From Roseithermus sacchariphilus (GTDB taxonomy: Bacteria > Bacteroidota > Rhodothermia > Rhodothermales > MEBIC09517): a stretch of DNA of 64,000 bases. The stretch covers positions 372,001 to 436,000 of the forward strand of contig CP030158.1 of assembly GCA_003285105.1 (NCBI GenBank). Reading direction: 5' to 3'. Made by a program: the position numbers and the translations under genes. Positions 12,031 to 29,747 of the stretch are shown here, piece after piece (the stretch's first letter is position 1; each line of letters starts with the position of its first letter). The notes under the pieces are model-generated. The model was not told the origin of the DNA. It searched no databases and saw only the letters and a list, made by a program, of their open reading frames with translations.

Positions 12031-13503
12031 ATGAAGCGCCTCACCGACTTTCCCGACGCCCATCTGCGCCTCTTCGAGCGGCCACCCGTGCCGCCACCGG
12101 AGGCCATCCGGGACGTCTACCTGATCGGCATCTGTGGCACGGGGATGGGCTCGCTGGCCGGGCTGTTCCAGCAGGCGGGCTACCGCGTGCGCGGGGCCGA
12201 CCAGGCCGCCTATCCGCCGATGAGCACCCGCCTGGCCGCCATGGGCGTCACCGTCCTCGAAGGCTACGACCCGGCCCACCTCGACCCCGCGCCCGACCTC
12301 GTCGTCGTCGGCAATGCCTGCACGCCGACGCACCCGGAAGCCGCCTACGCCCGCGACCACGGCCTCGCCCAGCAGTCGTTCCCCGAGGCGCTGGCCCACT
12401 TCTTCATCCGCGACCGCCGCTCCCTCGTCGTGGCCGGCACCCACGGCAAGACGACGACCACCGGCATGCTGGTGCACGTGCTGCGCGAGGCCGGCCTCGA
12501 CCCCGGCTTCCTCGTCGGCGGCGTGATGACGGGGCTGGAGACCAGCTACGCCGTCGGCACCGGCCCGCACTTCGTGGTGGAGGGCGACGAGTACGACAGC
12601 GCCTACTTCGACAAGCGGCCCAAGTTCATGCACTACCGGCCCACGAGCGCCATCGTCACCTCAATGGAGTTCGACCACGCCGACATCTACGCCGACTGGG
12701 CCGACTACCGCACGGCGTTCGAGGCCTTTGCCGGGACGGTGCCTCCCGAGGGGCTGCTCGTCCTCTGCGCCGACGACCCGGCCGTGCGCGCCCTCGCCGG
12801 CCACACATCCGCCCGCGTGCAGACCTATGGCCTGGAGCGCGGCGACGTGACGGCCCGCCACATCCGGCGGGGCGAAGGCGGCCAGCGGTTCGAACTCGTC
12901 GCCCACGGAGCCATCCAGGGCGAGGTGTTCCTGCCCATGAGCGGGCGGCACAACCTGCTCAACGCCCTCGCCGTCTGCACCGTCGCGCTCGACGAGGGGC
13001 TGACGGCCGAGCAGATCGCCTACGGCCTGGGCACGTGGCAGGGCATGAAGCGCCGCCAGGAGGTGCGGGGCGAGGCGGCCGGCGTGCTCGTGCTGGACGA
13101 CTTCGCGCACCACCCGACCGCCGTGCGGGCCACCCTCCAGGCCGTACGCGAGCGCTGGCCGGAGCGGCGGCTCGTGGCTGTCTTCGAACCCCGCAGCAAC
13201 TCCAGCCGCCGCAAGGTCTTCGAAGACGCCTACGCCGACGCCTTCGAGCAGGCCGACCTCGTCTTTCTCAGCACCCCGCCCTTCCGCCACAACGACCGCC
13301 GCGAGGACTTCCTCGACCCCGACGCCGTCACCGCCCGCCTCGAAGCCCGCGGCATCCCGGCCCGCGCCCTCCCCGACGCCGACGCCCTCCTGCCGCCGCT
13401 GCTGGACTGCCTCCGCCCCGGCGACACCGTGCTCATCATGAGCAACGGCGGCTTCGGCGGCCTCCACGACCGGCTGCTGGATCGACTGCGCGAGCGGGGG
13501 TGA
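12031..13503 (+). CDS. mpl: UDP-N-acetylmuramate:L-alanyl-gamma-D-glutamyl-meso-DAP ligase (Mpl)
   Basis: Attaches the recycled tripeptide L-Ala-gamma-D-Glu-meso-DAP to UDP-MurNAc, saving peptidoglycan fragments. The 490-residue protein shows the Mur-ligase layout. An N-terminal Rossmann part has IGICGTGMGSLAGLF near residue 32. The ATP loop AGTHGKTTTTG is near 135, with VVEGDEYDSAYFDKRPKF near 182. The C-terminal domain has DDFAHHPTAV and FEPRSNSSRR. These features are typical of Mpl rather than MurC. The last 48 codons and stop recur 933 bp downstream, so this 3' end has been rebuilt or duplicated. The reading frame is intact. Confidence 0.93.
   Translation: MKRLTDFPDAHLRLFERPPVPPPEAIRDVYLIGICGTGMGSLAGLFQQAGYRVRGADQAAYPPMSTRLAAMGVTVLEGYDPAHLDPAPDLVVVGNACTPTHPEAAYARDHGLAQQSFPEALAHFFIRDRRSLVVAGTHGKTTTTGMLVHVLREAGLDPGFLVGGVMTGLETSYAVGTGPHFVVEGDEYDSAYFDKRPKFMHYRPTSAIVTSMEFDHADIYADWADYRTAFEAFAGTVPPEGLLVLCADDPAVRALAGHTSARVQTYGLERGDVTARHIRRGEGGQRFELVAHGAIQGEVFLPMSGRHNLLNALAVCTVALDEGLTAEQIAYGLGTWQGMKRRQEVRGEAAGVLVLDDFAHHPTAVRATLQAVRERWPERRLVAVFEPRSNSSRRKVFEDAYADAFEQADLVFLSTPPFRHNDRREDFLDPDAVTARLEARGIPARALPDADALLPPLLDCLRPGDTVLIMSNGGFGGLHDRLLDRLRERG
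13357..13503 (+). repeat. 147-bp direct repeat, copy 1 (inside mpl 3' end)
   Basis: The last 147 bp of mpl match 14290-14436 with three differences that I can count by eye (about 98% identity). The copies are in the same orientation and lie 933 bp apart. This copy ends exactly at the mpl stop codon. The 786 bp between the copies hold the toxin/antitoxin pair. Confidence 0.93.
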
Positions 13504-25511: not shown

Positions 25512-26624
25512 TCAACCGGCGGGCACGAGTTCGTTGTAGAGCACCTCGTTGGACGGCGTCTGCTGCAGGTGCCGGATGAGCGCCTGCATGGCCTCGATGG
25601 GCGGGCGGCTGTTGAGCGCCCGGAAGAGCCGGTGATGTTGCTGCGTGTACTCCCCGAGCAGGCGCTCCTCGTTGCGCGTGCCGCTCTTGCGCAGGTTGAT
25701 GGCCGGGAAGATGCGCTTGTCCGCCATCTGGCGGTCGAGCACGATTTCGGCGTTGCCCGTGCCCTTGAACTCCTCGAAGATGACCTCGTCCATGCGGCTG
25801 CCCGTCTCGATGAGCGCCGTGGCGATGATCGTCAGCGAGCCGCCGCCCTCGATGTTGCGCGCCGCCCCGAAGATCTTGCGCGGGATCTTGAGCGCATTGG
25901 CATCCAGACCGCCGGACATGGTGCGCCCGGAGCCGCCCATGAACAGGTTGAAGCTGCGCCCGAGCCGCGTCAGCGAATCCAGCAGCAGCACCACGTCCTT
26001 GCGCAGCTCGACCAGCCGCTTGGCATACTCCAGCGCCAGCGTCGCAACGCGGACGTGGTTGTCCTCCTCCCGGTCGTTCGACGAGGCAAAGACGGTGCAG
26101 TTGGTCGTCCGCCGGAAGTCCGTCACCTCCTCGGGCCGCTCGTCGACCAGCAGGGCGACGAGCTCGATGTCCGGGTGGTTCTGCGAGATGCCGGCCGCCA
26201 TCTTCTTGAGCATCACCGTCTTGCCCGTGCGGGGCGGCGCCACGATCAGCGCCCGCTGGCCTTTCCCGATCGGCGCGGCCAGGTCGACCGCCCGCATCGT
26301 GATGTCCCGCGGGCTCGTCACCAGGTTCAGCTTCTCGTTGGGGAAGATGATCTGCCCCGAGTCGAACGGCCTGGTTTTCGCCCAGACCCGGGGATCCACC
26401 CCCATGATGGAGTGGATGTAGCTGACCTGCATGGCCCCTTTGCGTCCGGGCCGGAGCGTGCCTTCGAGCAGCACGCCGTCGCGAATGTTGAATTTTCGAA
26501 TCAGCGGCGGGGGCATGAAGGGATCGTTGTCCCCCTTGGGAATATCCTGCCGGAACTCTCGGATGAAGCCGAACTTCTTGTCTCCGATCATTTCCAGGAT
26601 GCCGCGAAACTGGGTTTTTGCCAT
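25512..26624 (-). CDS. rho: transcription termination factor Rho, short divergent form
   Basis: RNA-dependent hexameric ATPase. 370 residues, beginning directly in the cold-shock RNA-binding domain (GILEMIGDKKFGFIREF). The N-terminal helical RhoN domain of E. coli Rho (419 aa) is absent. Walker A is APPRTGKT (129-136) and the DERPEEVTDF segment is intact. The usual TFDEP..RHVQV motif reads SSNDREEDNHVRV (181-193), and the Q-loop region reads MGGSGRTMSGGLDANAL. The R-loop (EEFKGTGNAE) is normal. It may be the only Rho or a second, specialised one. The 576-bp upstream spacer has no gene. Confidence 0.88.
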   Translation of the reverse strand: MAKTQFRGILEMIGDKKFGFIREFRQDIPKGDNDPFMPPPLIRKFNIRDGVLLEGTLRPGRKGAMQVSYIHSIMGVDPRVWAKTRPFDSGQIIFPNEKLNLVTSPRDITMRAVDLAAPIGKGQRALIVAPPRTGKTVMLKKMAAGISQNHPDIELVALLVDERPEEVTDFRRTTNCTVFASSNDREEDNHVRVATLALEYAKRLVELRKDVVLLLDSLTRLGRSFNLFMGGSGRTMSGGLDANALKIPRKIFGAARNIEGGGSLTIIATALIETGSRMDEVIFEEFKGTGNAEIVLDRQMADKRIFPAINLRKSGTRNEERLLGEYTQQHHRLFRALNSRPPIEAMQALIRHLQQTPSNEVLYNELVPAG

Positions 26625-27200: not shown

Positions 27201-28028
27201 ATGGTTTCCGCGACGCCTTCAAGCCCGACGTCCCCTGCGGCCCCGGCCGGCTACGGTCCCGATGCCCTGCACTGTGAGGTCAGCGGGCCGGCCGAGGGGT
27301 CGCCCCTGCTGTTGCTGCACGGCTGGGGGAGCCAGGCCCGGCTCATGCAACCCATAGCCGACGCCCTGGCGGACCGGTACCGCGTCTACAACGTGGACCT
27401 GCCCGGGCACGGCTTCTCGCCCCCGCCGCCGGAGGGCTGGGGCGTCCCCGAGCACGCCGCCCTGGTCGCCGCGCTGATCCGGGACACCATCGGCGGCCCC
27501 GTCACGCTGGTGGGCCACTCCAACGGCGGCCGCATCGGGCTCTACATGGCCAGCGACCCGGCCTACGCGGATCTCATCCGCCGGCTCGTGCTGATCAGCC
27601 CGTCCGGCATCACCCCGCAGCGGTCGTGGCGCTACTACGCCCGCGCCTACGCGGCCCGGCTGCTGAAGGCCCCCTTCGCGCTGCTGCCGGCCCCGCTCCG
27701 CGAGCCGGGGCTGGACTGGCTCCGGCACTCGCTCGTCTGGAAGCTGCTGGGCTCGTCGGATTACCGGGCGCTGAGCGGGGTCATGCGGGAGACGTTCGTC
27801 AAAACGGTGAACTGTCATCTGGACGAGCGCGTGAGCCGCATCCGGGTGCCGACGCTCCTGTTCTGGGGCGACCGCGACGAGGCGGTGTCCCGCCATCAGA
27901 TGGAGGTGCTCGAAGCGCGCATCCCCGACGCCGGCCTCGTGGTGCTCGAAGGCGCCGGCCACTACGGCTACCTGGACGACCTCCCCACCTTTGTCGCCGC
28001 CACACGCTATTTTCTGGAGCACACCTGA
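27201..28028 (+). CDS. alpha/beta-fold hydrolase
   Basis: 275 residues of the Ser-hydrolase fold. The strand and oxyanion region are LLLLHGWGSQARL, the nucleophile elbow is GHSNGGRIG near residue 108, the acid Asp is in LLFWGDRDEAVS, and the His is in GAGHYGYLDD. The substrate cannot be read from sequence; esterases, C-C hydrolases and lactonases share this pattern. It has no signal peptide. It lies 96 bp before a membrane-anchored MurF-like ligase gene on the same strand, and the two may work together on an amino-acid or peptide conjugate (inference). Confidence 0.87.
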   Translation: MVSATPSSPTSPAAPAGYGPDALHCEVSGPAEGSPLLLLHGWGSQARLMQPIADALADRYRVYNVDLPGHGFSPPPPEGWGVPEHAALVAALIRDTIGGPVTLVGHSNGGRIGLYMASDPAYADLIRRLVLISPSGITPQRSWRYYARAYAARLLKAPFALLPAPLREPGLDWLRHSLVWKLLGSSDYRALSGVMRETFVKTVNCHLDERVSRIRVPTLLFWGDRDEAVSRHQMEVLEARIPDAGLVVLEGAGHYGYLDDLPTFVAATRYFLEHT

Positions 28029-28054
28029 TTTCCCGGAGCACCGCTGACGCCGCC

Positions 28055-28093
28055 GGCGTGCCTGCCCGGCGTGCCTGCCCGGCGTGCCTGCCC
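28055..28093 (+). repeat. three perfect tandem 13-bp units
   Basis: GGCGTGCCTGCCC occurs three times without change, between the hydrolase stop and the start of the MurF-like gene, ending 31 bp before that ATG. Confidence 0.9.
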
Positions 28094-28124
28094 TACCGCT
28101 CCTCCCGACCTCGTCCCTGCCCGC

Positions 28125-29747
28125 ATGAGCATCGCCCTCACCGCCCTGGCCCTCCTTGCCACCGCGTTTGCCGGCTGGCGAGCCTGGCGGCGGCTGCGCT
28201 ACTTCCTGCACGTCTACCAGCTCGAAGGCTATAAGCCGCACGAATACGGGGGGTGGATCGGCGCGCACCGGCACGTGGTGCTGCGCCGCTCGCACCTGGC
28301 CGGGCTGGCCCTGCTGGCGCTGGGGGCCGCCGCCACGGCCTTCCGGTGGCCGGAGGGGGTGTGGCTGCTGCTGATCGGCGGGTGGCCCGTCGCCTTCGCC
28401 TCGTCCCGGCTGTACCGGAGCACCCGCCCGAAGAAGCCGCTCGCCTACACCGCCCGGATGAAGCGGCTGCTGACGACGGCGGTGATCCTGACGGCCGTGC
28501 CGGCGGCGGTCGGGGCCATGCTCGGGCTGGAGCGCGGTGCCCCGTCCGGCTGGCTGCCCTACCTCGCCGGCCTCTGGCTGGCCGACCTCGGCGCGCCGCT
28601 CTGGGTGCTGCTGGCCGGCTACCTGATGCGCCCCGTCGAAGCCCGCATCCAGGCCGGCTTCAAACGGCAGGCCCGCCGCACGCTCGCCCGGCGCCCGGAC
28701 CTCACCGTCATCGGCATCACCGGCTCGTATGGCAAGACGAGCACCAAGTTCATCATCGCCGAGATCCTCCGGCAACGCTACAGCGTGCTGGCCTCCCCCG
28801 GCTCCTACAACACCCCCATGGGGCTCTGCCTCGTCATCAACACGATGCTCAAACCCGAGCACCAGATCCTCGTGCTGGAATACGGCATCCGCTACCGGGG
28901 GGACATCCAGGAACTGACGGAAATCGCCGCCCCGGACGTGGCCGTGGTGACGACGGTGGGCGTGGCGCACCTGGAAACGATGGGCTCCATCGAGAACATC
29001 GCGCTGGAAAAAGGCGACCTCGTCCGCCACGCCCGCCCGGGCGCCACGGCGGTGCTGAACGTCGACAACCCCTACGTCGCCGCCATGGCCGGGGAGACCA
29101 CCGGGCGGGTCTGGCGCGTGGCGCTGGAGGCCGAGGCGGACATCACCGCCCGCGACGTCCGCTACGGCCCCGACGGCGCCTCTTTCCTGGTCCGCGACGA
29201 CACCGGCACGGAGCATCGCTTCACGACCCGCCTCCTGGGGCGGCACAACATCCTGAACATCCTCCTGGGCGTGGCCGTCGGGCGGGCCTTCGGGCTGCGG
29301 CTGCGGCAGATCGCCCACGCCGTGGCGCGGGTGCAACCCGTGGAACACCGGCTGCAACTGCGCCGGGAGGGCGCCATCACCATCATCGACGACGCCTTCA
29401 ACAGCAACCCGGTCGGCGCCCGGAATGCCGTCGAGATCCTGGGACACTTCGACACGGGCCGCCGCGTCATCGTCACGCCCGGCATGGTCGAACTCGGCGC
29501 TCGCCAGGCCGAGGAGAACCGCGCCCTGGGCACCCACATCGCCCGCCATGCGGACCTGGCGATCCTGGTCGGCCCCGAGCAGACACGGCCGATCCGGGAA
29601 GGCCTGATCGAGGCCGGCTTCCCGGAGGATCGGATCCGCACCGTCGGCTCGCTCTTCGAGGCGCAGGACGTCCTGCAAACCTACCTCCGCCCCGGCGACG
29701 TCGTCCTCTACGAAAACGACCTGCCGGATCAGTACGACGAATCCTGA
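28125..29747 (+). CDS. membrane-anchored MurF-like Mur ligase
   Basis: 540 residues. The first ~175 hold a short N-terminal helix and about four more membrane segments with a basic loop (RSTRPKKPLAYTARMKRLL). The Mur-ligase core follows: ATP loop ITGSYGKTSTK near 200, EYGIRYRGDIQEL, VGVAHLETMGSIENIALEK, the LLGRHNILN domain junction, and DDAFNSNPVGARNAVEIL as in MurF. Canonical MurF has a UDP-MurNAc-tripeptide-binding domain ahead of the ATP loop. Here that place is taken by membrane helices, so the substrate may be lipid-linked or not a wall precursor. Annotators would likely call it murF; I leave the symbol empty. Confidence 0.82.
   Translation: MSIALTALALLATAFAGWRAWRRLRYFLHVYQLEGYKPHEYGGWIGAHRHVVLRRSHLAGLALLALGAAATAFRWPEGVWLLLIGGWPVAFASSRLYRSTRPKKPLAYTARMKRLLTTAVILTAVPAAVGAMLGLERGAPSGWLPYLAGLWLADLGAPLWVLLAGYLMRPVEARIQAGFKRQARRTLARRPDLTVIGITGSYGKTSTKFIIAEILRQRYSVLASPGSYNTPMGLCLVINTMLKPEHQILVLEYGIRYRGDIQELTEIAAPDVAVVTTVGVAHLETMGSIENIALEKGDLVRHARPGATAVLNVDNPYVAAMAGETTGRVWRVALEAEADITARDVRYGPDGASFLVRDDTGTEHRFTTRLLGRHNILNILLGVAVGRAFGLRLRQIAHAVARVQPVEHRLQLRREGAITIIDDAFNSNPVGARNAVEILGHFDTGRRVIVTPGMVELGARQAEENRALGTHIARHADLAILVGPEQTRPIREGLIEAGFPEDRIRTVGSLFEAQDVLQTYLRPGDVVLYENDLPDQYDES

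Follow-up and report, generated by a model that had tools for sequence, protein, structure and literature searches.

Introduction

MurF adds the last two amino acids of the cell-wall building block, and UDP-MurNAc-pentapeptide is the textbook product before the membrane is reached. In the dcw cluster murF usually stands between murE and mraY. MurT of MurT/GatD (lipid II isoglutaminyl synthase) is related to the Mur ligases but has no UDP-binding domain; it works with a partner enzyme, and a lipid-linked peptidoglycan precursor is its known substrate. With lipid II as substrate, its authors argue, the domain is unnecessary and would collide with the membrane (PMC6113224). MraY of B. subtilis loses 17% of its activity when the precursor lacks D-Ala-D-Ala (PMC4987650). 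The dcw genes are listed in PMC8871954.

We describe a hydrolase and ligase gene pair from Roseithermus sacchariphilus. The ligase is a membrane-embedded MurF-like protein, mMurF, which appears to replace soluble MurF here and throughout several branches of the bacteria. Most likely this is the organism's own MurF step, carried out at the membrane with two more proteins coupled to it, and not a side pathway. A description of a membrane MurF was not found in the open-licence literature, a scope outside which most subscription papers lie.

The gene pair

The window is the whole stretch of DNA that was analysed (64,000 nucleotides); the features of the pair are as follows.

27201..28028, + strand: alpha/beta serine hydrolase, companion of mMurF; 275 aa; Pfam Abhydrolase_1, E 5.3e-30
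27519-27521, 27876-27878 and 27960-27962, + strand: hydrolase triad S107, D226 and H254, respectively; invariant in 43/43
28125..29747, + strand: mMurF, membrane-embedded MurF-like ligase; 540 aa, start ATG 28125
28125..28703, + strand: mMurF membrane domain, residues 1-193, about five hydrophobic helices; by hydropathy and charge (68 sequences) and AlphaFold2
28431..28466, + strand: conserved basic cytoplasmic loop of mMurF, K103-K104-P105..T109..R111..R114; by alignment of 68
28716..29279, + strand: Mur ligase middle (ATP) domain of mMurF; PF08245 (Mur_ligase_M), E 6.6e-40
29346..29708, + strand: Mur ligase C-terminal domain of mMurF; PF02875 (Mur_ligase_C), E 5.8e-13
29712..29729, + strand: family-specific signature ENDLPD of mMurF near the C-terminus, residues 530-535; 68/68 in alignment A2

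The ligase frame is open upstream as far as GTG 28071; the start of its relatives aligns with ATG 28125 and was adopted for this reason, which makes the intergenic gap exactly 96 nt. The pair proposed in the first-pass annotation, with the hydrolase at 27201-28028 and the ligase from 28125, is thus real. Two Rho genes, 49% identical over the match, lie at 25512-26624 (- strand) of the window and at G000:C1:744100-745170; in many relatives a gene of the window type stands upstream of the hydrolase.

Domains and conserved residues of mMurF

Of the 39 other genomes searched in the order, 23 have an orthologue with 50-71% identity over near-full length, far above chance. Alignment A1 comprises the window protein and 12 of these 23 full-length orthologues; alignment A2 comprises the window protein and 67 of 77 usable mMurF loci (68 members). 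Pfam recognises Mur_ligase_M and Mur_ligase_C only, with no N-terminal Mur domain, and the MurF model TIGR01143 aligns from model position 68 onward (242.6 bits; cut-off 288.6). In the 112 genomes of the class (Rhodothermia) that carry mMurF, this model scores 222-274 bits, always below the cut-off, and its first 58 positions are unmatched in all 112.

Residues of the P-loop, E252, H282, K296 (which we take to be the position of the carbamylated lysine), R409, D422, D423, N426 and N428 are invariant over the 68 members, so that the ligase chemistry of mMurF looks intact. A model of the whole protein (AlphaFold2; pLDDT 94.1, pTM 0.88) has MurF as its closest solved fold (3zl8; Z 35.8, rmsd 3.6, 359 aligned). 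The closest solved sequences are likewise MurF, at 213 bits; the best MurE reaches 83 bits. MurF, rather than MurC, MurD, MurE, MurT or FolC, is the closest known relative by sequence and fold; middle and C-terminal domains, P-loop, catalytic residues and genomic role are shared. Unlike MurF, mMurF has membrane helices in place of the UDP-binding N-terminal domain, scores under the MurF cut-off, bears a different C-terminal signature and has an obligate hydrolase partner.

Assignment of mMurF to MurT or to another Mur homologue was considered and rejected, both sequence and fold matching these more weakly than MurF (MurT model NF045635, 19.4 bits; cut-off 800). In contrast to MurT, mMurF has a true membrane domain and presumably adds a dipeptide; MurT is paired with the glutamine amidotransferase GatD, and the conserved neighbours at the mMurF loci encode instead an alpha/beta hydrolase and Ddl*, a divergent D-Ala-D-Ala ligase (below).

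Five hydrophobic segments are present in the first 190 residues (hydropathy, 68 sequences). Of the loops, 23-54, 97-111 and 167-193 bear positive charge and the others are neutral, which places the catalytic domains on the cytoplasmic side. Modelled helices of this part span residues 2-33, 55-73, 78-90, 110-137, 143-155 and 157-188. Its only Pfam match was a sub-threshold, Mpo1-like one (E 0.053); structural comparison barely covered this part, and a new fold is not claimed for that reason. The second cytoplasmic loop is strongly conserved (K103 in 67, K104 in 66, P105 in 63, and T109, R111 and R114 in all of 68), and Q32 and Y36, beside this basic cluster, are invariant. The loop K103..R114 is proposed as a putative pyrophosphate-binding site.

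The first-pass annotation had read the ligase in much the same way. The MurF motifs that it named (ITGSYGKTSTK and DDAFNSNPVGARNA) are both found in the protein; the loss of the UDP-binding domain, with the ATP and C-terminal domains of MurF kept, agrees with Pfam and with the start of the TIGR01143 match; and membrane anchoring is borne out by hydropathy and model, the first ~190 residues being mostly hydrophobic helices.

MurF content of the genome and its relatives

The source genome is a single contig of 4.81 Mb (99.98% complete) with six Mur_ligase_M genes. The dcw cluster holds three of them (murE, murD and murC), and mraY follows murE there by 48 bp with no murF between; the weakest, at C1:741621, is taken to be FolC; the fifth and sixth are Mpl, within the window, and mMurF. 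Mpl, the ligase that attaches tripeptide in peptidoglycan recycling, lies at 12031-13503 (+ strand; TIGR01081, 398 bits; cut-off 388.7). A second MurF was sought in the whole 4.8-Mb genome and none was found; mMurF is its only MurF-like gene.

Canonical MurF and mMurF exclude each other in the order and the class. Among 40 genomes of the order, the source included, TIGR01143 gave a full-length canonical MurF in 14 (308-334 bits), only the truncated match typical of mMurF in 24, and both in none; G030 holds a piece of mMurF at the end of a contig, and neither type was seen in G005 (77% complete). Of 146 class genomes (each at least 90% complete), 112 have mMurF only, 27 canonical MurF only, 7 no match (none at E 1e-50 with TIGR01143) and 0 both. 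In the class of Dethiosulfatibacter, 125 of 147 genomes have canonical MurF, 20 the mMurF pattern only, 2 nothing and 0 both; these 20 calls are made from the match pattern of the MurF model.

The hydrolase occurs in every one of the seven Rhodothermia genomes with no match (G158, G177, G088, G141, G146, G171 and G172), and a ligase at the level of Ddl* in six of them; mMurF probably lies in gaps or is split in these genomes. G261 (class of G056) gave four matches to the MurF model, three in frames of 772-990 aa, which are possibly extra, fused Mur ligases.

Counts of this kind are not independent, as the swap within the order may represent one to three events. A tree of Rho from 30 genomes calls for three switches between the MurF types and is also compatible with one; an independent-contrast test on the same tree yielded one to three independent pairs, too few for significance. 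Fisher p-values are not used as evidence since the genomes are related. Independent support for replacement comes from other phyla, where the same trio of genes recurs.

The ligase had first been interpreted as part of an extra, uncharacterised pathway beside a housekeeping MurF, making and trimming a lipid or polymer conjugate apart from peptidoglycan. Five of 27 named genomes chosen for having mMurF do carry canonical MurF as well ([Clostridium] ultunense, a Tissierellia MAG, Clostridium sp. Cult3, Sedimentibacter and Flavilitoribacter), and mMurF may accordingly be redundant or special there; a partial MurF match inside an 801-aa frame was seen in G064, the genome of locus L155. An extra pathway is nevertheless very improbable for the present gene, given that no other MurF exists in the genome, that the two types exclude each other in 139 of 146 genomes of the class, and that the gene takes a dcw position in Poribacteria (below). 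The second, canonical murF for which the first-pass annotation advised a search is missing. It had held that absence of any other MurF, together with rescue of a murF mutant, would make this the housekeeping enzyme; the first half came out positive, against its own reading.

The hydrolase

Alignment A3 comprises the window hydrolase and 42 of 47 relatives. S107, D226 and H254 are invariant in 43/43 and form a complete Ser-Asp-His triad; the cap residues R141, D187, R196 and N204 are conserved and would match a substrate that bears charges, a peptide for example. The structure model (pLDDT 94) matches alpha/beta hydrolase folds. EstV-like lipases, ABHD6, meta-cleavage hydrolases and N-formylmaleamate hydrolases share fold and triad; in contrast to these, the companion of mMurF is an orthologous group of its own with conserved cap residues. 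Fold matches, sought as a guide to the substrate, spread over generic esterases and lipases, amidases and meta-cleavage hydrolases and favour none of these.

One strong orthologue (225-350 bits) is present in 111 of the 112 mMurF genomes of the class, in all seven genomes without a MurF match and in 0 of the 27 with canonical MurF; the sole mMurF genome without it, G138, is in 260 contigs. The hydrolase was also found in 22/22 named mMurF genomes tested (275-366 bits).

Gene order in other phyla

Eighty named mMurF loci were compared, from Rhodothermia, Balneola relatives, Bacillota, Poribacteria and other Bacteroidota; genomes of 27 and 22 of these loci served for the canonical-MurF check and the hydrolase check, respectively. 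The hydrolase stands directly upstream of mMurF and in the same direction at 56 of the 80, in several phyla, the matched ends being 3 to 253 nt apart (HMM scan). The 24 loci without an adjacent hydrolase are L083 and 23 on the Balneola side of the class, where the hydrolase is mostly unlinked to mMurF, yet present in every mMurF genome sampled.

That the hydrolase is an unrelated neighbour is hardly credible. Its fold is indeed common (1,844 PDB matches at E up to 0.001), but adjacency recurs across phyla, and the gene accompanies mMurF even where the two are unlinked and is absent from all 27 canonical genomes. The functional tie between ligase and hydrolase, already suspected in the first-pass annotation, is well founded on these counts (111/112 against 0/27; 56/80 loci).

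Ddl* lies directly downstream of mMurF at 33 of the 80 loci, all of them among the 34 outside Rhodothermia and the Balneola relatives, with a spacing of 15 to 167 nt (537 nt in L145, where the gene is partly masked). The order hydrolase, mMurF, Ddl* is thus found in 33/34 loci of Bacillota, Poribacteria and Bacteroidota. In the Poribacteria locus L142 the order by Pfam is MraW, FtsI, MurE, hydrolase, mMurF, Ddl*, MraY, MurD, FtsW; L152 and L162 are arranged alike by gene family and length. The Poribacteria trio therefore occupies the interval between murE and mraY, the usual place of murF.

Closeness to mraY would also fit a soluble substrate: mMurF would replace MurF but act on UDP-MurNAc-tripeptide, the membrane domain merely tethering it near MraY for channelling. 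The catalytic domains are those of an ordinary MurF, as such a tether would have it; the UDP-binding domain, however, is absent from every member seen, polar residues at the membrane face are invariant, and the hydrolase would not be needed. We regard a mere tether as unlikely.

The divergent D-Ala-D-Ala ligase

The second partner of mMurF, Ddl*, is encoded elsewhere in the source genome:

L068:6118-7359 (G000:C1, about 3.052-3.053 Mb), strand not given: own Ddl*, by profile match

It is present in 110 of the 112 mMurF genomes of the class and in 0 of the 27 with canonical MurF. Its profile scores 434-518 bits in these 110 (G087 and G113 unmatched) and in six of the seven genomes without a MurF match (G172, 319 bits); in the canonical-MurF genomes it scores 227-371 bits in 26 of 27 (G099 unmatched). 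Alignment A4 comprises the own protein and 27 of 29 others. Ddl* resembles Ddl (TIGR01205) in its ATP-grasp core, the KY of the omega loop and its score (own protein 259.6 bits; cut-off 245.65); both Pfam domains of Ddl are found in Ddl* of L142 and L133. It differs from Ddl in an insert after KY, a conserved C-terminal tail and the loop PGSFSFYLWE or a close form of it (10/10 inspected) in place of PGxTxxS (PGFT...S in 3/3 canonical-type ligases). The PGxTxxS loop lies next to the second-substrate site and contacts the second D-Ala in DdlB. In the own Ddl* the insert is rich in Gly, Lys and Arg, and the tail YDVNLL..GLKGAK is common to Ddl* of other phyla. Canonical ddl adjoins murF in 10 of the 14 canonical-MurF genomes of the order; one canonical-MurF genome, G019, has a second full-length Ddl besides its main one (261 bits, C459:16193-17086).

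To judge by the changed loop of Ddl* and the distinct C-terminal signature of mMurF, the dipeptide may be an altered one. The stem peptide would then be capped with D-Ala-D-X via Ddl* instead of D-Ala-D-Ala, which is compatible with the MurF step at the membrane favoured below. The loop (10/10 against 3/3) and the ENDLPD signature (68/68) speak for such a cap, which we nonetheless hold to be rather unlikely, because Ddl* retains the omega-loop KY and exceeds the Ddl cut-off, and no sequence rule fixes its product.

Proposed pathway

Replacement of MurF by mMurF, partnered by hydrolase and Ddl*, is strongly supported by comparative genomics. The substrate is probably lipid-linked, as the lipid conjugate of the first-pass annotation would have it; this is suggested by the missing UDP-binding domain, the basic inner face, the argument made for MurT and the tolerance of MraY for a tripeptide. 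We prefer the reading in which mMurF stands in for MurF, acts with hydrolase and Ddl* and takes membrane-linked MurNAc-tripeptide, as lipid I or lipid II, for its substrate; we think it somewhat better than evenly probable.

MurC, MurD and MurE would produce UDP-MurNAc-tripeptide, and MraY would transfer this tripeptide, not a pentapeptide, to undecaprenyl phosphate. Seated in the inner membrane, its catalytic domains on the cytoplasmic side, mMurF would grip the lipid pyrophosphate through its basic inner face and, with ATP, attach the dipeptide made by Ddl* to the tripeptide of lipid I or lipid II before the lipid is flipped. The hydrolase might proofread or trim the dipeptide or the lipid-linked stem peptide, which is a guess; against the preferred reading stands the fact that no known MurF step accounts for hydrolase chemistry.

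A more complete version comes close to an even chance in our estimate, falling slightly short of it: UDP-MurNAc-tripeptide would go straight to MraY, the last two residues (possibly not D-Ala-D-Ala) would be joined on the lipid carrier by mMurF, the hydrolase would be an essential editing or maturing enzyme, UDP-MurNAc-pentapeptide would never be formed, and murF would have been displaced in lineages of at least three phyla.

Significance

Whole-protein MurF models, used at their cut-off, score mMurF genomes as lacking MurF. A MurF-like enzyme embedded in the membrane, accompanied by its hydrolase and an unusual dipeptide-making enzyme, suggests that the building block is completed on the lipid carrier. 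If this is true, there are lineages that complete the stem peptide at the membrane, and the accepted order of peptidoglycan assembly would change for them; MurF would be able to lose its UDP-binding domain, and a genetic system for testing the role of that domain would be at hand. The hydrolase would join the likely essential genes of wall building, and there would be consequences for the action of drugs that target MurF or Ddl, or that bind D-Ala-D-Ala, on bacteria with mMurF.
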